NCBI RefSeq assembly: GCF_004366375.1
Contig: NZ_SOEF01000001.1
Coordinates: forward strand, 62,001-126,000
DNA length: 64,000 nt
Source: Halanaerobium congolense
GTDB taxonomy: Bacteria; Bacillota; Halanaerobiia; Halanaerobiales; Halanaerobiaceae
Direction: 5' to 3'
Below are positions 42,869 to 62,846 of the stretch, one piece after another. Position 1 is the stretch's first letter. Each line of letters begins with the position of its first letter. The position numbers and the translations under genes were made by a program. The notes beneath the pieces are model-generated. The model was not told where the DNA came from. It searched no databases and saw only the letters and a program-made list of their open reading frames with translations.

Positions 42869-44926
42869 TTAGATCTTTAATTCTATTTGCGAAATTATTT
42901 CAGCTAAATTCTTATATTCTTGCTGCCAATTTTTATTTTTTACTATTAAAGCAGCTTCATCTCTAGCCTTCACTAAAAGATTTTGGTCGTCAATTAAACT
43001 AGCTGCTTTTAAGTCATCAATTCCATGCTGTTTAGTTCCGAAAAACTCTCCCGGCCCCCGCATTTTTAAATCTTCTTCAGCAATTAAAAATCCATTATTA
43101 CTTTTACACATGATTTCTAATCTATGAGCTGAATCTTCACCGGAGGGATCAGAGATTAAAATACAATATGACTGATGTTTTCCGCGACCAACTCGTCCTC
43201 TTAATTGATGGAGTTGAGCCAGACCAAACCTTTCCGCATTTTCTATAATCATGATGCTGGCATTACTGACATCTACTCCAACCTCTATTACTGTAGTTGC
43301 AATTAAAATATCTACTCCACCATCTCTGAACTTTTCCATTATTTCCTTTTTCTCATCAGCTGCAATCGAACTGTGCAGTAAGGCCAGATTATAATCTGCA
43401 AAAAAACCTGAATTAAGATCCTGATATAATTCTTCAGCTGAAATTAATTTAGGCATTTCTTCTGATTTTTCAATTAAAGGACAAACAATGTAGGCCTGTC
43501 TTCCTGTGTTGACCTTTTCTTTCAGAAATTGATAAATTTGCTTTCTTCTATTTTCTCTCCTCCAAAAGGTCGCAATTTTTTTTCTTCCCGGAGGCATCTC
43601 ATCAATTACAGATAGATCTAAATCGCCATAAATTAACATAGCCATTGATCTAGGAATTGGGGTTGCTGTCATAATCAGCAAATCAGGATTGTCTCCTTTT
43701 TCTTTTAAACTGTGCCGCTGCTCAACTCCAAAACGATGCTGTTCATCGATTACTATCAAACCTGGATTATCATAATTTAAGCTTTCCTGAAAAAGAGCAT
43801 GAGTTCCAATTATTAAGTCACTATTACCTTTTTCAATTTTGGCTTCAATATCTTTGCGTTCAGCTTGTTTAACACTTCCTGTTAAAAGCTCAATGTTGTA
43901 GTTAAATTCACTTAAAAGCTCCTTAAAATTTAAATAGTGCTGTTCTGCTAAAATTTCTGTAGGTGCCATAAAAACACCCTGATAACCATTAGCCATTGTT
44001 TCCAGCAGAGCTAATGCTGCTACCACAGTTTTACCGGATCCAACATCCCCCTGTAATAACCTGGACATTGTCTGAGGGGATTCCATATCCTTTCTTATTT
44101 CTGACCAAACTCTATTTTGAGCAGAGGTTAAATCAAAATCAAGTTTTTCTAAAAATTTTCTATTTTCAGCTTTAATAAACTGATGTTTAATTCCTTTTAA
44201 ATCATTATATTTTTTCTTCTCTTCTAAAGCATAAAGCTGCAGATAGAAAAATTCTTCAAAGGCTAAACGTCTTCGTGAATATTTTTGATGTTTTTCATTT
44301 TTTGGAAAGTGCATTCCAAGAATAGAGGTTTTTAAATTAAGAAAACTATATTTTTTTAGAATAAATTGTGGGAGCTGATCTTTAAGTAATGGTGCGTGAC
44401 TTTTTAAAGCATTAGCAATAATTCGACGCAGACGTCGCTGAGTTAAGCCTTCTGTTAATGAATAAACCGGAACAATGCGCCCGGTATTTAAAACTGAGGC
44501 TTCAGAATCTAATTTTTCATAGACTGGATTGTTAATTTCTTTTCTATTATATTTTCTCCAGTTTTTTTCACTTATTTTACCACTAATTAAATACTTATCA
44601 CCTTTATTAAATTGTTCACGAAGATATGACTGATTATACCAAATCCCGTTAACCACACCACTACCATCTGAAAAAGAAACTCTTAACAGATCAAGGTTAT
44701 TACGTATTCGTTGATAATTTATCTTTAAGACTTCAACCTTAAAATTTGCTTTTTCACCAACAGCAGTATATTTGATTTGACTTATTTGGCTGCGGTCTTC
44801 ATATTCACGGGGAAAATAATATAAGAGATCTTTAACAGTTTTTATCTCTAATTTTGAAAGGCGCTCGGCCCATCTGGGCCCAACACCTTTAATAAATTGA
44901 ACTTTATCTGAAAGTTTTAATTTCAT
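42869..44926 (-). CDS. recG: ATP-dependent DNA helicase RecG
   Basis: Reverses stalled replication forks and branch-migrates Holliday junctions. The 685-residue protein has an N-terminal wedge/OB domain, Walker A GDVGSGKT, the DEQH box (IDEQHRFGVEQR), TATPIPRS, and a C-terminal helicase half ending QLRGRVGRG. All helicase motifs are intact, in contrast to priA in this window. The start overlaps the DegV gene by 4 bases. Confidence 0.97.
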   Translation of the reverse strand: MKLKLSDKVQFIKGVGPRWAERLSKLEIKTVKDLLYYFPREYEDRSQISQIKYTAVGEKANFKVEVLKINYQRIRNNLDLLRVSFSDGSGVVNGIWYNQSYLREQFNKGDKYLISGKISEKNWRKYNRKEINNPVYEKLDSEASVLNTGRIVPVYSLTEGLTQRRLRRIIANALKSHAPLLKDQLPQFILKKYSFLNLKTSILGMHFPKNEKHQKYSRRRLAFEEFFYLQLYALEEKKKYNDLKGIKHQFIKAENRKFLEKLDFDLTSAQNRVWSEIRKDMESPQTMSRLLQGDVGSGKTVVAALALLETMANGYQGVFMAPTEILAEQHYLNFKELLSEFNYNIELLTGSVKQAERKDIEAKIEKGNSDLIIGTHALFQESLNYDNPGLIVIDEQHRFGVEQRHSLKEKGDNPDLLIMTATPIPRSMAMLIYGDLDLSVIDEMPPGRKKIATFWRRENRRKQIYQFLKEKVNTGRQAYIVCPLIEKSEEMPKLISAEELYQDLNSGFFADYNLALLHSSIAADEKKEIMEKFRDGGVDILIATTVIEVGVDVSNASIMIIENAERFGLAQLHQLRGRVGRGKHQSYCILISDPSGEDSAHRLEIMCKSNNGFLIAEEDLKMRGPGEFFGTKQHGIDDLKAASLIDDQNLLVKARDEAALIVKNKNWQQEYKNLAEIISQIELKI

Positions 44927-45798
44927 TCTCCCAATAATTCTCCTCTATAAATAACTATTCCATAAACAAGCGGACCTGTATGAGAACTTAGTACAGTTCC
45001 AATTTTATTTTCTAAAATATTGTACTTATATTGATTTTGTTTTTGAAGCTCAGCTGTAAATAATTCTTTAAACTGCAAAAAGTTATCACTTTCTTCACCA
45101 TAAACATAAGCAAAGTTTACCTGATCACTATTTCCAGCTGCCTCTAATGCCAGCTCAATCATTTTTTGATTGGTTTTTTTATAACCTCTAATTTTTTCTT
45201 TAGGGGTTATTTCACCTACTTCAGTAGAAAGTTCTAGAATTGGGTTAAAATTAAAAATACTCCCCAAAAATGCCTGAGCTTTTCCAATTCTACCCCCTTT
45301 TTCTAAATAAGTTAACTCATTAACCGTAAAATAAATTGTTAGCTTTTCTCTTTCTACTGACAGAGTTTCCTTAATTTCTTCAACGCTTTTTCCTGACTCT
45401 ATCATTTCTGCTGCAAGTAAAACTAAAAATCCGAGCCCACTGCTTGTAGATTTAGAATCAATTACTTCAACCGCGATATCCTCCACCTGCTGAGCCGCTA
45501 ACCTGGCTGACTCAAGAGTTCCACTTAAAGCAGAAGATATATGGATAGAAATAATCTGATCGTATTCAGCAGCTAGTTTTTGATATTTTTCTATAAAAAG
45601 GCCCACAGATGGCTGTGAAGTTGTAGGTAGTTCATCAGAATTCTCCATCATAGAAAATAATTTATCACTATCAAGATCAATTTTATCGTAATAGGTATCT
45701 TCTTTAAAATGAACAATTAAGGGTACAAATTCTATTGAATATTTTTCCATAAATTCTGCTGGTAAATCACAGGTGCTGTCAGTCACTATGGCAATCAT
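44923..45798 (-). CDS. DegV family fatty-acid-binding protein (FakB-like)
   Basis: A 291-residue DegV protein with TDSTCDLP at the N terminus, TTSQPSVG, and the SSALSGTLESAR block. Such proteins hold fatty acids for phosphorylation by FakA. FakA is the next gene upstream (11 bases away), so this is probably its FakB partner. Ligand preference is not predictable from sequence. ATG 45796-45798 follows AGGATG. Confidence 0.88.
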   Translation of the reverse strand: MIAIVTDSTCDLPAEFMEKYSIEFVPLIVHFKEDTYYDKIDLDSDKLFSMMENSDELPTTSQPSVGLFIEKYQKLAAEYDQIISIHISSALSGTLESARLAAQQVEDIAVEVIDSKSTSSGLGFLVLLAAEMIESGKSVEEIKETLSVEREKLTIYFTVNELTYLEKGGRIGKAQAFLGSIFNFNPILELSTEVGEITPKEKIRGYKKTNQKMIELALEAAGNSDQVNFAYVYGEESDNFLQFKELFTAELQKQNQYKYNILENKIGTVLSSHTGPLVYGIVIYRGELLGE

Positions 45799-58766: not shown

Positions 58767-59219
58767 TCACTCCACAAGTTTTACAATTTTATCGACAAAT
58801 AAGACTCCATCTAAATGATCCATCTCATGTTGGATTGCTCTGGCTTCAAAACCTTCTGCTTCAAATTCAATTTGCTTACCTTCACGATTTAAGCTTCTAA
58901 CTTTAATTTTTTGTGATCTTATTACATCACCGGTCTCACCTGGAATACTAAGGCAACCTTCTTCCATTATTGCCTTTCCTTCTTCTTCGATTATTTCCGG
59001 ATTTATTAAAACCACCTTATTATCTTCCCTAATATCTACAACTGCAATTCTTTTTAAAATTCCAACCTGTGGTGCTGCCAAGCCAACACCATCTTCTTCA
59101 TACATTGTATCAAACATATTATCTATTAAATCATTTGTTTTTTTAGTTACTTTATCTATTTTTTTTGATTTACTTCTTAATACTGGGTCACCAATTTCTC
59201 TAATTTGTAACAAAGCCAT
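58767..59219 (-). CDS. def: Peptide deformylase
   Basis: Removes N-formyl groups from new proteins. The 150-residue metalloenzyme has all three motifs: GVGLAAPQVG, EEGCLSIPG and QHEMDHLDG. AGGAGG precedes ATG 59217-59219. It follows priA by 23 bases and precedes fmt. Confidence 0.97.
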   Translation of the reverse strand: MALLQIREIGDPVLRSKSKKIDKVTKKTNDLIDNMFDTMYEEDGVGLAAPQVGILKRIAVVDIREDNKVVLINPEIIEEEGKAIMEEGCLSIPGETGDVIRSQKIKVRSLNREGKQIEFEAEGFEARAIQHEMDHLDGVLFVDKIVKLVE

Positions 59220-59242: not shown

Positions 59243-61468
59243 TTATAACATTCTATAGGGATCCACATCAATACGAATTTCTACTGAATCATCATTATTT
59301 TCTTCTATGAATTTTTTTTCAATTAGCTGAATTATATATTCTCGATTACGAATCGAGCTAAACTTTAAAATGATCTGCCGCCTGTATTTTTTCCTAATTT
59401 TACTCAGCGGAGCAGGAGCTTCTCCTAATTTTTCTAAGTATTTAGCTTTAAATTGATCTAAAAAATTAGATAACTTTTTGCTTTCAGCAGCAGCCTTATT
59501 TTCACTTTGGCTGCTTATTATAATATTTAATAGACGACAAAATGGGGGATAATTTCTCTTTTTTCTAATTTGACCTTCCTGTTCATAAAAAGAATTATCT
59601 GTTTGATCAAGAGCAGCTTTAATACTGTAATGTTCTGGCTGAAAACTTTGAACCAAAAATTTGCTCTGATCGGTATTTTTTAACAGTGATTTTAATTCTT
59701 TTAAAATAAAATAATTTGTCTCTGCTGATCTAAAATTAGAACTATTAAGTGCTGTATCTGCAGAAATCACAGCTATCAATTTAAGTTCTTCATAAAACTG
59801 CTTCTTTATTAAAATAGAGGTGCCTACTAAAATATCAATTTTATTATTCTTAAAGTCATTTAACCTCTTTTTTACTTCTTTTTCTTTTAAGTCACTATCA
59901 ACTCTTTTAATTCTGGCTGCTGAATATATTTTTTTTAGCTCTTCAATTATTTTTTCAGTTCCAACCCCAGCCTGGGAAATAAAAGCACTACCACAGTCGG
60001 GACATTTTTGGGGCATTTCTTTTTTTAAACCACAATAGTGACATCGTAATTCCTGTTCTTGCTGATGATAATTCAAAGAAATATCACAGTTTTCACATTT
60101 GAGAACATGCCCACATTTTCTACAAATTATATAATTAGACATCCCCAGACGATTTAAAAATAATATCACTTTATTTCCTGCAGACAGCTGATTTTTAATT
60201 TCAGCTTTTAATTTACTACTTAAGTCACCCAAATTTCCTCTTTCAACTTCTTTTTTCATATCAATAATTTCACTGCTTATTTTATTTTCTTCAGCAGCTA
60301 AATTAATCTGTTGATATTCACCTTTATCGGCTAAAGTTTTGCTTTCTAAAGAAGGTGCAGGGGATTCTAATATTAAAAGTGACTTTTTATTTTTTAATCT
60401 CTTAACAGCAATTTGTCTGGCGTGATATAAAGGATGCTCCTGTTCTTTATAGTTTTCGTTATTTTCTTCCATTAAGATGACGGCATCGAGACTTGAAAAT
60501 GGAGCAAAAATTGCTGATCTTGCTCCAACAACAATCTGCACTTCTCCCTTTCTAATCTGCTGCCACTGATCAAAGCGCTCAGCTTGAGAAAGCTGGCTGT
60601 GCAAAAAGGCTATTTTATCAGAAAAATAGTTTGCTAGCTGCTCTAAAAATATATAATCTTTTTCAATTTCAGGAATTAATAAAATAATATTTTTCTGCTG
60701 AACTGCTAATTTTTCTAAAAGCTTTATAATAAAATTATATCTCTTTGAACTATTTTTTGTTGTTAAAAGGTAACTATTTTTTCCAGAATTAAAATCAACA
60801 ATTTGCTCCAGCAATTCTGCATCAGTTTGAGAAATGGTAATTTCTTTGTTCATTGAACTCTTTAAATTACTATTAATTATTGGTCTTCGATTTTCATACT
60901 TATTATATAAAATAATCAAATCTTTGTCTATTAAACGGTAAACAGTCTGCCGAGAAGTATCTGCAGCTGCTAACACAGTTTCCAATTTATTCCTTTGATC
61001 ATTTTTTTCTAATAAGTAATTTAGAATTAAGTATTGTTTTGGAGCTCTTTTTTCTAATTTTTCTAGTTCAGATTTATAATTATTTATCTGATCATTTAGT
61101 TTTAGATATTCTACTTCTTTTTTTTTGATTTTTTGATCAACTATACCTGGTGGTAGAGCTGATTTAATTACTTGAGCCAGATAAGCATGGTAATATGCTG
61201 CAGTCCAATAGAAAAGGTCTAATAATTTCTGCTCAAAAAAACTTTCCGAATAAAATATAGAATCAATTTCTTTAAGTTTTGATTTTTCCAAATCAGATTT
61301 TACATCAAGTTGAGTCACAAAAGCAGATATTTTCCTTCTGCCAAAAGGAACTTTAACAATTTGACCTATTTTAATCGAATTTTTAAATTTATCTGGAAGC
61401 AGATAATCAAATTCTTTATTCAATTTTCTTAAAGGTAAATCAACAACTACTTTTATTATTTGCTGCAT
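59243..61468 (-). CDS. priA: PriA-like primosomal protein with degenerate helicase motifs
   Basis: A 741-residue PriA homologue by length, N-terminal DNA-binding domain and position between metK and def-fmt. All eight zinc cysteines are present between residues 449 and 492 (CRKCGH, CENCD, CHYCG, CPDCG). However, the helicase signatures are eroded: the Walker A site reads TTKNSSKRYN (about 236-245), the DEEH box reads MEEN (333-336), the SATPS motif reads SPAPS, and the motif V region reads GTSILIKKQF (about 549). No motif VI GRAGR is present. The frame is intact, so this looks like a fixed ATPase-dead variant keeping a structural or loading role. ATG 61466-61468 follows AAGGGA. Confidence 0.88.
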   Translation of the reverse strand: MQQIIKVVVDLPLRKLNKEFDYLLPDKFKNSIKIGQIVKVPFGRRKISAFVTQLDVKSDLEKSKLKEIDSIFYSESFFEQKLLDLFYWTAAYYHAYLAQVIKSALPPGIVDQKIKKKEVEYLKLNDQINNYKSELEKLEKRAPKQYLILNYLLEKNDQRNKLETVLAAADTSRQTVYRLIDKDLIILYNKYENRRPIINSNLKSSMNKEITISQTDAELLEQIVDFNSGKNSYLLTTKNSSKRYNFIIKLLEKLAVQQKNIILLIPEIEKDYIFLEQLANYFSDKIAFLHSQLSQAERFDQWQQIRKGEVQIVVGARSAIFAPFSSLDAVILMEENNENYKEQEHPLYHARQIAVKRLKNKKSLLILESPAPSLESKTLADKGEYQQINLAAEENKISSEIIDMKKEVERGNLGDLSSKLKAEIKNQLSAGNKVILFLNRLGMSNYIICRKCGHVLKCENCDISLNYHQQEQELRCHYCGLKKEMPQKCPDCGSAFISQAGVGTEKIIEELKKIYSAARIKRVDSDLKEKEVKKRLNDFKNNKIDILVGTSILIKKQFYEELKLIAVISADTALNSSNFRSAETNYFILKELKSLLKNTDQSKFLVQSFQPEHYSIKAALDQTDNSFYEQEGQIRKKRNYPPFCRLLNIIISSQSENKAAAESKKLSNFLDQFKAKYLEKLGEAPAPLSKIRKKYRRQIILKFSSIRNREYIIQLIEKKFIEENNDDSVEIRIDVDPYRML

Positions 61469-61529
61469 AAAAATCCCTTCCAAATAATTATTTCATTAAT
61501 TTAAAATTATACTTAAATCATATATTAAA

Positions 61530-61559
61530 TATTAAAAGCCGAAGGTAAAAACCTTCGGC
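61530..61559 (-). terminator. Intrinsic terminator after metK
   Basis: GCCGAAGGT (61538-61546) and ACCTTCGGC (61551-61559) form a perfect 9-bp stem with a 4-base loop and TTTTAATATTT beyond on the minus strand, 29 bases after the metK stop. Confidence 0.85.
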
Positions 61560-61587
61560 AGCATATCAAATAATCATAAATTATTAT

Positions 61588-62772
61588 TTATTCTAAACCA
61601 GCTTTCTTTCTTAAACTATCCACTCTATCGATTTTTTCCCAGGGAAGGTCTAAATCATGACGACCAAAATGACCATAAGCGGCTACCTGTTTGTAAATAG
61701 GCTTTCTTAAATTTAGATTTTTAATTATTTGAGCTGGTCTTAAATCAAATTCATTTTTAACAATTTTTTCTAATTTGTTTTCATCAATAACTGCAGTACC
61801 AAAAGTATCGATCATAACAGATAAAGGTTTTGCAACTCCAATGGCATAAGCCATCTGCACCTCACACCTTGCTGCAAGATCTGCTGCAACAATATTTTTA
61901 GCAATATAACGGGCAGCATAAGAAGCAGAGCGATCAACTTTTGTCGGATCTTTACCGGAAAAAGCTCCTCCTCCATGATGTGCGGTTCCACCATAGGTGT
62001 CAACTATGATTTTCCTACCTGTTAAACCTGTATCTCCATTTGGTCCACCAATTACAAAACGACCTGTTGGGTTGACGAAAATTTCAGTATCTTCTCTAAA
62101 TAATTTTTCATCAATTATTTCTTTAATTACATGTTTTGTGATATCTTCTTTAATTTGTTTTTGAGTAACTTTAGGATGGTGTTGAGAAGATATTAAAATT
62201 TTATCAACATAAATAGGTTTATTATCCTTATAAGCAATTGTAACTTGAGTTTTTCCATCAGGACGGAGATACTTCAAGGGCCCATTTTTTCTGACTTCAG
62301 CCAATCTGCGGGCCAATTTATGTGATAACATAATTGGCAGCGGCATTAATTCTTCAGTTTCATTAGAAGCATATCCAAACATTAAACCCTGATCACCAGC
62401 TCCTAAATCTGAATTTGATGACCCCTCTTTTTCTTCTAAAGAATGATCAACTCCTAATGCAATATCTCCAGATTGTTCGTCAATTGCTGTTAAAACAGCA
62501 CAAGTTTCTCCATCAAAACCATATTTAGCTCTGGTATATCCAATATCCTTGACTGTTTCTCTTGCAATCTTTTTTAAATCAACATAACAGGAAGTTGTTA
62601 TTTCTCCTGCAATTAATATTAATCCTGTTGTTACCATGGTTTCACAAGCAACTCTCGCCTCAGGATCTTTTGCAAGAATTGCATCTAAAACAGCATCAGA
62701 AATTTGATCAGCAACTTTATCTGGATGTCCTTCAGTCACTGATTCTGAGCTAAATAAATATTTACGTGTCAT
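61588..62772 (-). CDS. metK: S-adenosylmethionine synthetase
   Basis: Makes SAM from methionine and ATP. The 394-residue product has [33 protein letters not shown], and the phosphate-binding [17 protein letters not shown]. Start is ATG 62770-62772 ([12 protein letters not shown]) behind AAGGTGA. It is the single gene between its own promoter and terminator; a short leader of about 70 nt shows no SAM riboswitch. Confidence 0.97.
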
Positions 62773-62846
62773 AATATCACCTTTCATCTATCAGCATCTT
62801 CTTAACTTAAAATTAAAATCTATTCATTCACTAACTTAATAAATTT

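Follow-up and report, generated by a model that had tools for sequence, protein, structure and literature searches.

The window, i.e. the whole stretch of 64,000 nucleotides from Halanaerobium congolense that was analysed, carries on its minus strand the orthologous priA gene of the organism, which is present in single copy. The gene, its neighbours and the conserved parts of its product are as follows:

59243–61468, minus strand: priA, 741 amino acids, ATG start at 61468 (the mechanical open reading frame begins at a TTG at 61483)
61588–62787, minus strand: metK, upstream neighbour, synteny in 20 genomes
58767–59219, minus strand: def, downstream neighbour, then fmt and others, synteny in 20 genomes
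61151–61468, minus strand: 3'-end DNA-binding domain (3'BD; amino acids 1–106), Pfam PF17764 at 7.8e-26, background evolutionary rate
59246–59548, minus strand: C-terminal domain (CTD; amino acids 641–741), Pfam PF18074 at 1.6e-18, background rate (ratio 0.43)
59993–60124, minus strand: eight zinc-binding cysteines, all kept (amino acids 449, 452, 458, 461, 476, 479, 489 and 492)

Matches over the cut-offs were obtained for the Pfam models PriA_3primeBD, Zn_ribbon_PriA, Helicase_C (partial) and PriA_C, TIGR00595 scored 439 bits (cut-off 230), and solved PriA chains from the PDB aligned over most of the length of the protein with E-values of about 1e-80. Together, these matches gave the domain order of a PriA orthologue, namely 3'BD, helicase lobes, zinc ribbon and PriA C-terminal domain. 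The gene order metK-priA-def-fmt, continuing on to stkP, was kept in 20 genomes and confirmed orthology by position. A previous sequence-only reading of this stretch had assigned the gene to PriA by its length, gene context and eight zinc cysteines and had described the frame as open throughout, and both descriptions were borne out by the full-length homology, the complete set of cysteines, the conserved neighbourhood and the uninterrupted 741 codons. Full-length homology, domain order and zinc module are common to the window protein and canonical PriA (PDB 4NL4, 6DGD, 8FAK), whereas the intact ATP site of the latter is not.

The possibility of a second PriA elsewhere had also been raised. The organism's own genome (99.91% complete) contained one PriA match over the cut-off, with the other matches being weak and located in frames of 691, 1169 and 680 amino acids. 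One match per genome was likewise found in the congeners with a full-length priA, including two single-contig genomes, and the Walker A pattern was missing from all 12 genomes of the genus, excluding a second copy within the limits of these data. A contig scan with the window protein retrieved one locus in a Bacillales MAG, which was ruled out, as it is not the PriA of that genome. No relative of the window PriA was found in the viral contigs searched.

The helicase motifs were assigned by alignment. Five of them were replaced, and two elements were kept:

60734–60769, minus strand: former Walker A, LLTTKNSSKRYN replacing LLHGVTGSGKT
60461–60472, minus strand: former DEEH (Walker B), MEEN
60350–60364, minus strand: former SATPS, SPAPS
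59801–59824, minus strand: former motif V, GTSILIKK replacing GTQMxAKG (then HD)
59675–59698, minus strand: former motif VI, ELKSLLKN replacing QVAGRTGR with loss of the arginines (inside 59657–59704, the region named for it before)
60506–60526, minus strand: kept motif GARSAIF, near-identical across 10 of 10 congeners
60413–60451, minus strand: kept loop YKEQEHPLYHARQ, with Y340, K341, P346, Y348 and R351 invariant in 10 of 10 congeners

The kept loop sits at a place that we take to be that of the aromatic-rich loop of PriA. All five replaced strings had been pointed out in the earlier reading and were found at their minus-strand places. Intact versions elsewhere in the protein were sought in an alignment with 19 intact orthologues and none was detected, with the altered residues lying in homologous columns. 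Motif IV is also changed in this species (NRLGM), whereas eight of the 10 congeners have NRRG. RecG, which had been reported as intact in the same window, indeed carries GDVGSGKT, DEQH and QLRGRVGR (42872–44944, minus strand); the exact string SATPIPRT was not found in it.

Walker A, DEEH, GSAT, motif V and motif VI, which mark an active SF2 helicase, were replaced in all 10 congeners, and we infer that the ATPase activity of the window PriA is lost. That nucleotide might still be bound or hydrolysed through a new, non-canonical site is very unlikely; basic residues do occur in the former P-loop region (K/R at 242–243 in most congeners), but the P-loop glycines and threonine were lost along with the Walker B aspartate and the motif VI arginines, and an exchange of K to R alone abolishes the ATPase of E. 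coli PriA according to work cited in PMC4504706.

The phylogenetic extent of the loss was assessed in the order (38 genomes, of which 30 PriA proteins were aligned). In the genus, 10 of 12 genomes have a readable full-length priA, with gene fragments only in one (G019) and none in another (G020), both incomplete. Walker A was gone in all 10 proteins, with HGVTGSGKTE being replaced by, for example, TTKNSSKRYN, ETNNNRRRYI or ESSHHKQRFS. The DEEH site reads M/L-E/D-E-N/G throughout, so that the aspartate and the histidine were lost and the second glutamate was retained in 10/10; motif III lacks GSAT, motif V lacks GHD, and no trace of QVAGRxGR was left. In the sister genus (G022), DQEH and SPTPS are still present but Walker A and motifs V and VI are gone, and the PriA of this genus is, judged by these motifs, an intermediate stage of motor loss. 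The motifs were intact in G021, the next genus in the family, and in all others read in the order. Rather than being shared across the order, as had been considered, the loss thus extends no further than the genus and a single sister genus. On the DNA level, neither G022 nor any of the 12 genomes of the genus has the PriA-type Walker A pattern, which was found in 44 of the other 46 genomes of the class; the two exceptions among these were a genome in which priA is broken by contig ends (G006) and one with no priA match (G035). The latter, from the order, is 93% complete, and the missing PriA is probably an assembly gap. The degenerate clade, comprising the genus and G022, received 100% support, and the PriA tree agrees with a tree of eight neighbour genes, both placing G021 next. 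These findings are best explained by PriA having become a pseudohelicase in the common ancestor of the genus and its sister genus, which we consider very probable.

The locus would be explained without any loss by an error of sequencing or assembly, or by intact motifs hidden elsewhere in the protein. This is improbable in the extreme, since the changes affect the same columns in 10 separate assemblies, including two single-contig ones, and a GxTGSGKT pattern was not present in any genome of the genus; sequence error, which the sequence-only reading had named as a possible source, was thus ruled out.

At 61538–61559 of the window, in the interval from metK to priA, a perfect hairpin GCCGAAGG-TTTTTA-CCTTCGGC is followed by TTTT. 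It is likely the metK terminator, and priA therefore probably has its own promoter here. In intact relatives (L088:954–2000 and L091:966–2048), metK and priA are separated by a gene for an LPG_synthase_TM membrane protein, which has a four-base overlap with the priA start codon. This gene is missing from the interval (61468 to 61588 in the window) in the degenerate genus and the sister genus, where paralogues of about 30% identity are found elsewhere only; its loss maps to the branch on which PriA changed.

A loss of catalytic motifs might also mark a decaying pseudogene, in which PriA-dependent restart was abandoned and the frame is eroding only slowly. Nei-Gojobori dN/dS values of four congener pairs, another check that had been proposed, were 0.12, 0.19, 0.13 and 0.15 for the whole gene and 0.10–0.18 for the two helicase lobes; some dS values exceeded 1 and are rough. 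Branch lengths were additionally fitted on a fixed species tree and expressed as the length of the degenerate clade relative to the rest. The ratio was 2.23 for lobe 1 and 2.05 for lobe 2C, about four times the background, and 0.51 for neighbouring control genes, 0.55 for 3'BD, 0.70 for the winged helix (WH), 0.90 for CRR and 0.43 for CTD. Columns invariant among the 19 intact orthologues were lost in 10/10 congeners at 16 of 60 positions in lobe 1 and 15 of 48 in lobe 2C, as compared to 1 of 16 in lobe 2N, 1 of 15 in CRR and 0 of 22 in 3'BD, WH and CTD together. The lost columns are mostly ATP-site residues, and GARSAIF, Y340-K341-P346-Y348-R351 and the eight cysteines were kept. Rates and lost columns thus indicate relaxed constraint confined to the motor, with the present lobes under purifying selection. 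For a pseudogene, the fourfold acceleration of the lobes over the clade would be expected, but the full-length open frame in 10/10 congeners, the low dN/dS values including those of the lobes, the background rates of the structural and DNA-binding domains and the retention of all eight cysteines largely refute this explanation, which is extremely unlikely. The sequence pattern is that of a pseudohelicase, with the catalytic motifs lost and PriA otherwise conserved under selection.

The partner genes were compared between genomes with intact and with degenerate PriA. On contig C12 of the organism's own genome (L057), a DnaB_2-domain protein (378 amino acids), a DnaI/DnaC-like AAA+ loader (341 amino acids) with an intact P-loop GPIGSGKS and DnaB adjoin in a row, showing that the machinery to be loaded exists. 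The same arrangement of a DnaB_2 gene, a DnaI/DnaC-like gene and a third gene was present in 10/10 congeners, in G022, in the intact G021 and in G031. As DnaD/B and DnaI are also found in the intact G021, this is evidence that a loader exists and not that the loader changed. Elsewhere among the genomes read, the next gene after that for DnaB_2 codes for about 460 amino acids and is DnaB where tested. In family f1 and G031, a DnaI/DnaC-like gene separates the DnaB_2 gene from dnaB; the other families read lack it at this place (L057–L076). A loss of DnaD was considered as a correlate and rejected; the DnaD model of 73 positions misses most congeners, yet the partner is detected with the DnaB_2 model and seen in the operon, and the loss is therefore not real.

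A compensating helicase was also sought, and no helicase gain or loss tracked the PriA change in the genomes compared. RecQ, absent from three congeners and from G022, and a second UvrD/PcrA-like gene, which is patchy, were rejected as compensators, as their distribution does not follow the PriA loss. PcrA is found in every genome of the genus and is close to universal overall. The second UvrD/PcrA-like gene is open in most congeners and contains three in-frame stops (two TGA, one TAA) in one single-contig relative (G013:C1:1999720–2001786).

Most likely, the window PriA is a pseudohelicase that would work as an ATP-independent fork-binding platform for DnaB loading, and our confidence in this reading is high. 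The 3'-end-binding domain, winged helix and C-terminal domain would recognise the branched fork, and the two dead RecA-like lobes with the kept YKxQ..YHAR loop, together with the zinc module, would hold the lagging-strand template. The complex of PriA and fork may then recruit the DnaD/DnaB-like protein and the DnaI-like loader, which would load the replicative helicase DnaB. The duplex of the lagging arm might be opened by another helicase, for which PcrA is a candidate, or the cells may do without. As sequence proxies for fork binding and helicase contact, 3'BD, WH and CTD evolve at or near the background rate and the loader operon is present; an AlphaFold model from the single window-protein sequence reached a pLDDT of 36 and was too poor for use. 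Replication restart without PriA helicase activity, one of the two explanations offered at first, is the best-supported reading, with the loss of the ATPase itself deduced from sequence.

The sequence conservation seen in the dead lobes could also reflect a function different from restart. PriA might even have been repurposed so that it no longer starts a primosome, e.g. as a fork-protecting or regulatory DNA-binding protein, with restart proceeding by another route. The long-lasting change in the lobes and new residues shared genus-wide (K270, V310, E368, Y446 and L592 in 10/10) would fit such a role, but the primosome partners are conserved as an operon, no other initiator was found in the genomes searched, every PriA-specific domain is retained, and the PriA of D. 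radiodurans kept its DnaB contact (PMC4504706). We regard repurposing as unlikely, though it is the least improbable of the alternatives to a fork-binding platform.

The term pseudohelicase was given to the PriA of D. radiodurans, which binds both forks and DnaB but neither hydrolyses ATP nor unwinds DNA (Lopper et al. 2015, PMC4504706). This protein shares with the window PriA orthology, ruined Walker A and B motifs fixed in a whole lineage and, as predicted for the window protein, retained DNA binding. Unlike the Deinococcus case, the window clade is a separate lineage with a loader of the DnaD/B and DnaI type, has also lost motifs V and VI, and has a partly degraded sister genus. In E. coli, PriA devoid of helicase and ATPase is viable and assembles primosomes, as cited in PMC4504706, and priA300 (K230R) has been used as a helicase-inactive allele with an effect on D-loop unwinding (PMC4752480). 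The window PriA is predicted to resemble this mutant, as far as these sources describe it, but K230R is a laboratory point mutant and not a natural conserved form, and E. coli loads DnaB via PriB, DnaT and DnaC, whereas the window clade has DnaD/B-like and DnaI-like genes. A literature search found no paper joining Halanaerobium and PriA, and among papers on PriA and pseudohelicases, judged by title and abstract, only the Deinococcus paper concerns a PriA pseudohelicase. Taken by its motifs and rates, the window PriA is a clade-wide, selected pseudohelicase; it adds a new independent case to the kind known from Deinococcus and has a transitional form in the sister genus.

Helicase motifs are also noted by UniProt as missing in actinobacterial PriA. 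To look for further losses, 197 genomes from the class of the Bacillales MAG (G059) were pattern-screened, and 80 of the 85 pattern-negative genomes were searched for the PriA family, with a match in 45. The GKT/GKS P-loop is kept in 23 of these, where small variations let them escape the pattern, whereas 21 (L122–L142) have no Walker A, no recognisable motif VI and a changed DEEH. The remaining one (L143; 685 amino acids, weak score) was too divergent to call; being doubtful as a PriA, it did not enter the topology test. A single PriA match at 1e-30 was obtained in every one of the 21 genomes lacking Walker A. Their PriAs form two clades with 100% support each, and in both, lobes 1 and 2C are faster than 3'BD and CTD; the zinc cysteines are partly lost in five (L126, L127, L131, L134 and L140). 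Forcing the window clade and these degenerate PriAs into one clade costs 230 log units and was rejected (AU p=0.0007), whereas a single origin within the Bacilli-type set was not rejected (p=0.11). Loss of the PriA motor is thus probably a recurrent transition, with the motor lost independently at least two or three times outside Deinococcus-Thermus, namely in the window clade and once or twice in the Bacilli-type class, accompanied by fast lobes and conserved fork-binding domains.

For annotators, some caution is advisable, as TIGR00595 (NCBIfam) labels such proteins 'replication restart helicase PriA' when helicase activity is not to be expected. PriA proteins widely retain their helicase motifs, although E. 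coli can do without the activity in the laboratory. A natural clade without the motor, flanked by one intermediate and one intact sister genus that share its partner genes, allows a direct test of the step that requires ATP, and the Bacilli-type repeats make the comparison statistical rather than anecdotal. If the recurrence holds true, the selected core function of PriA would be ATP-independent fork recognition and helicase loading, and the window clade with its half-degraded sister genus would record the dismantling of the motor.
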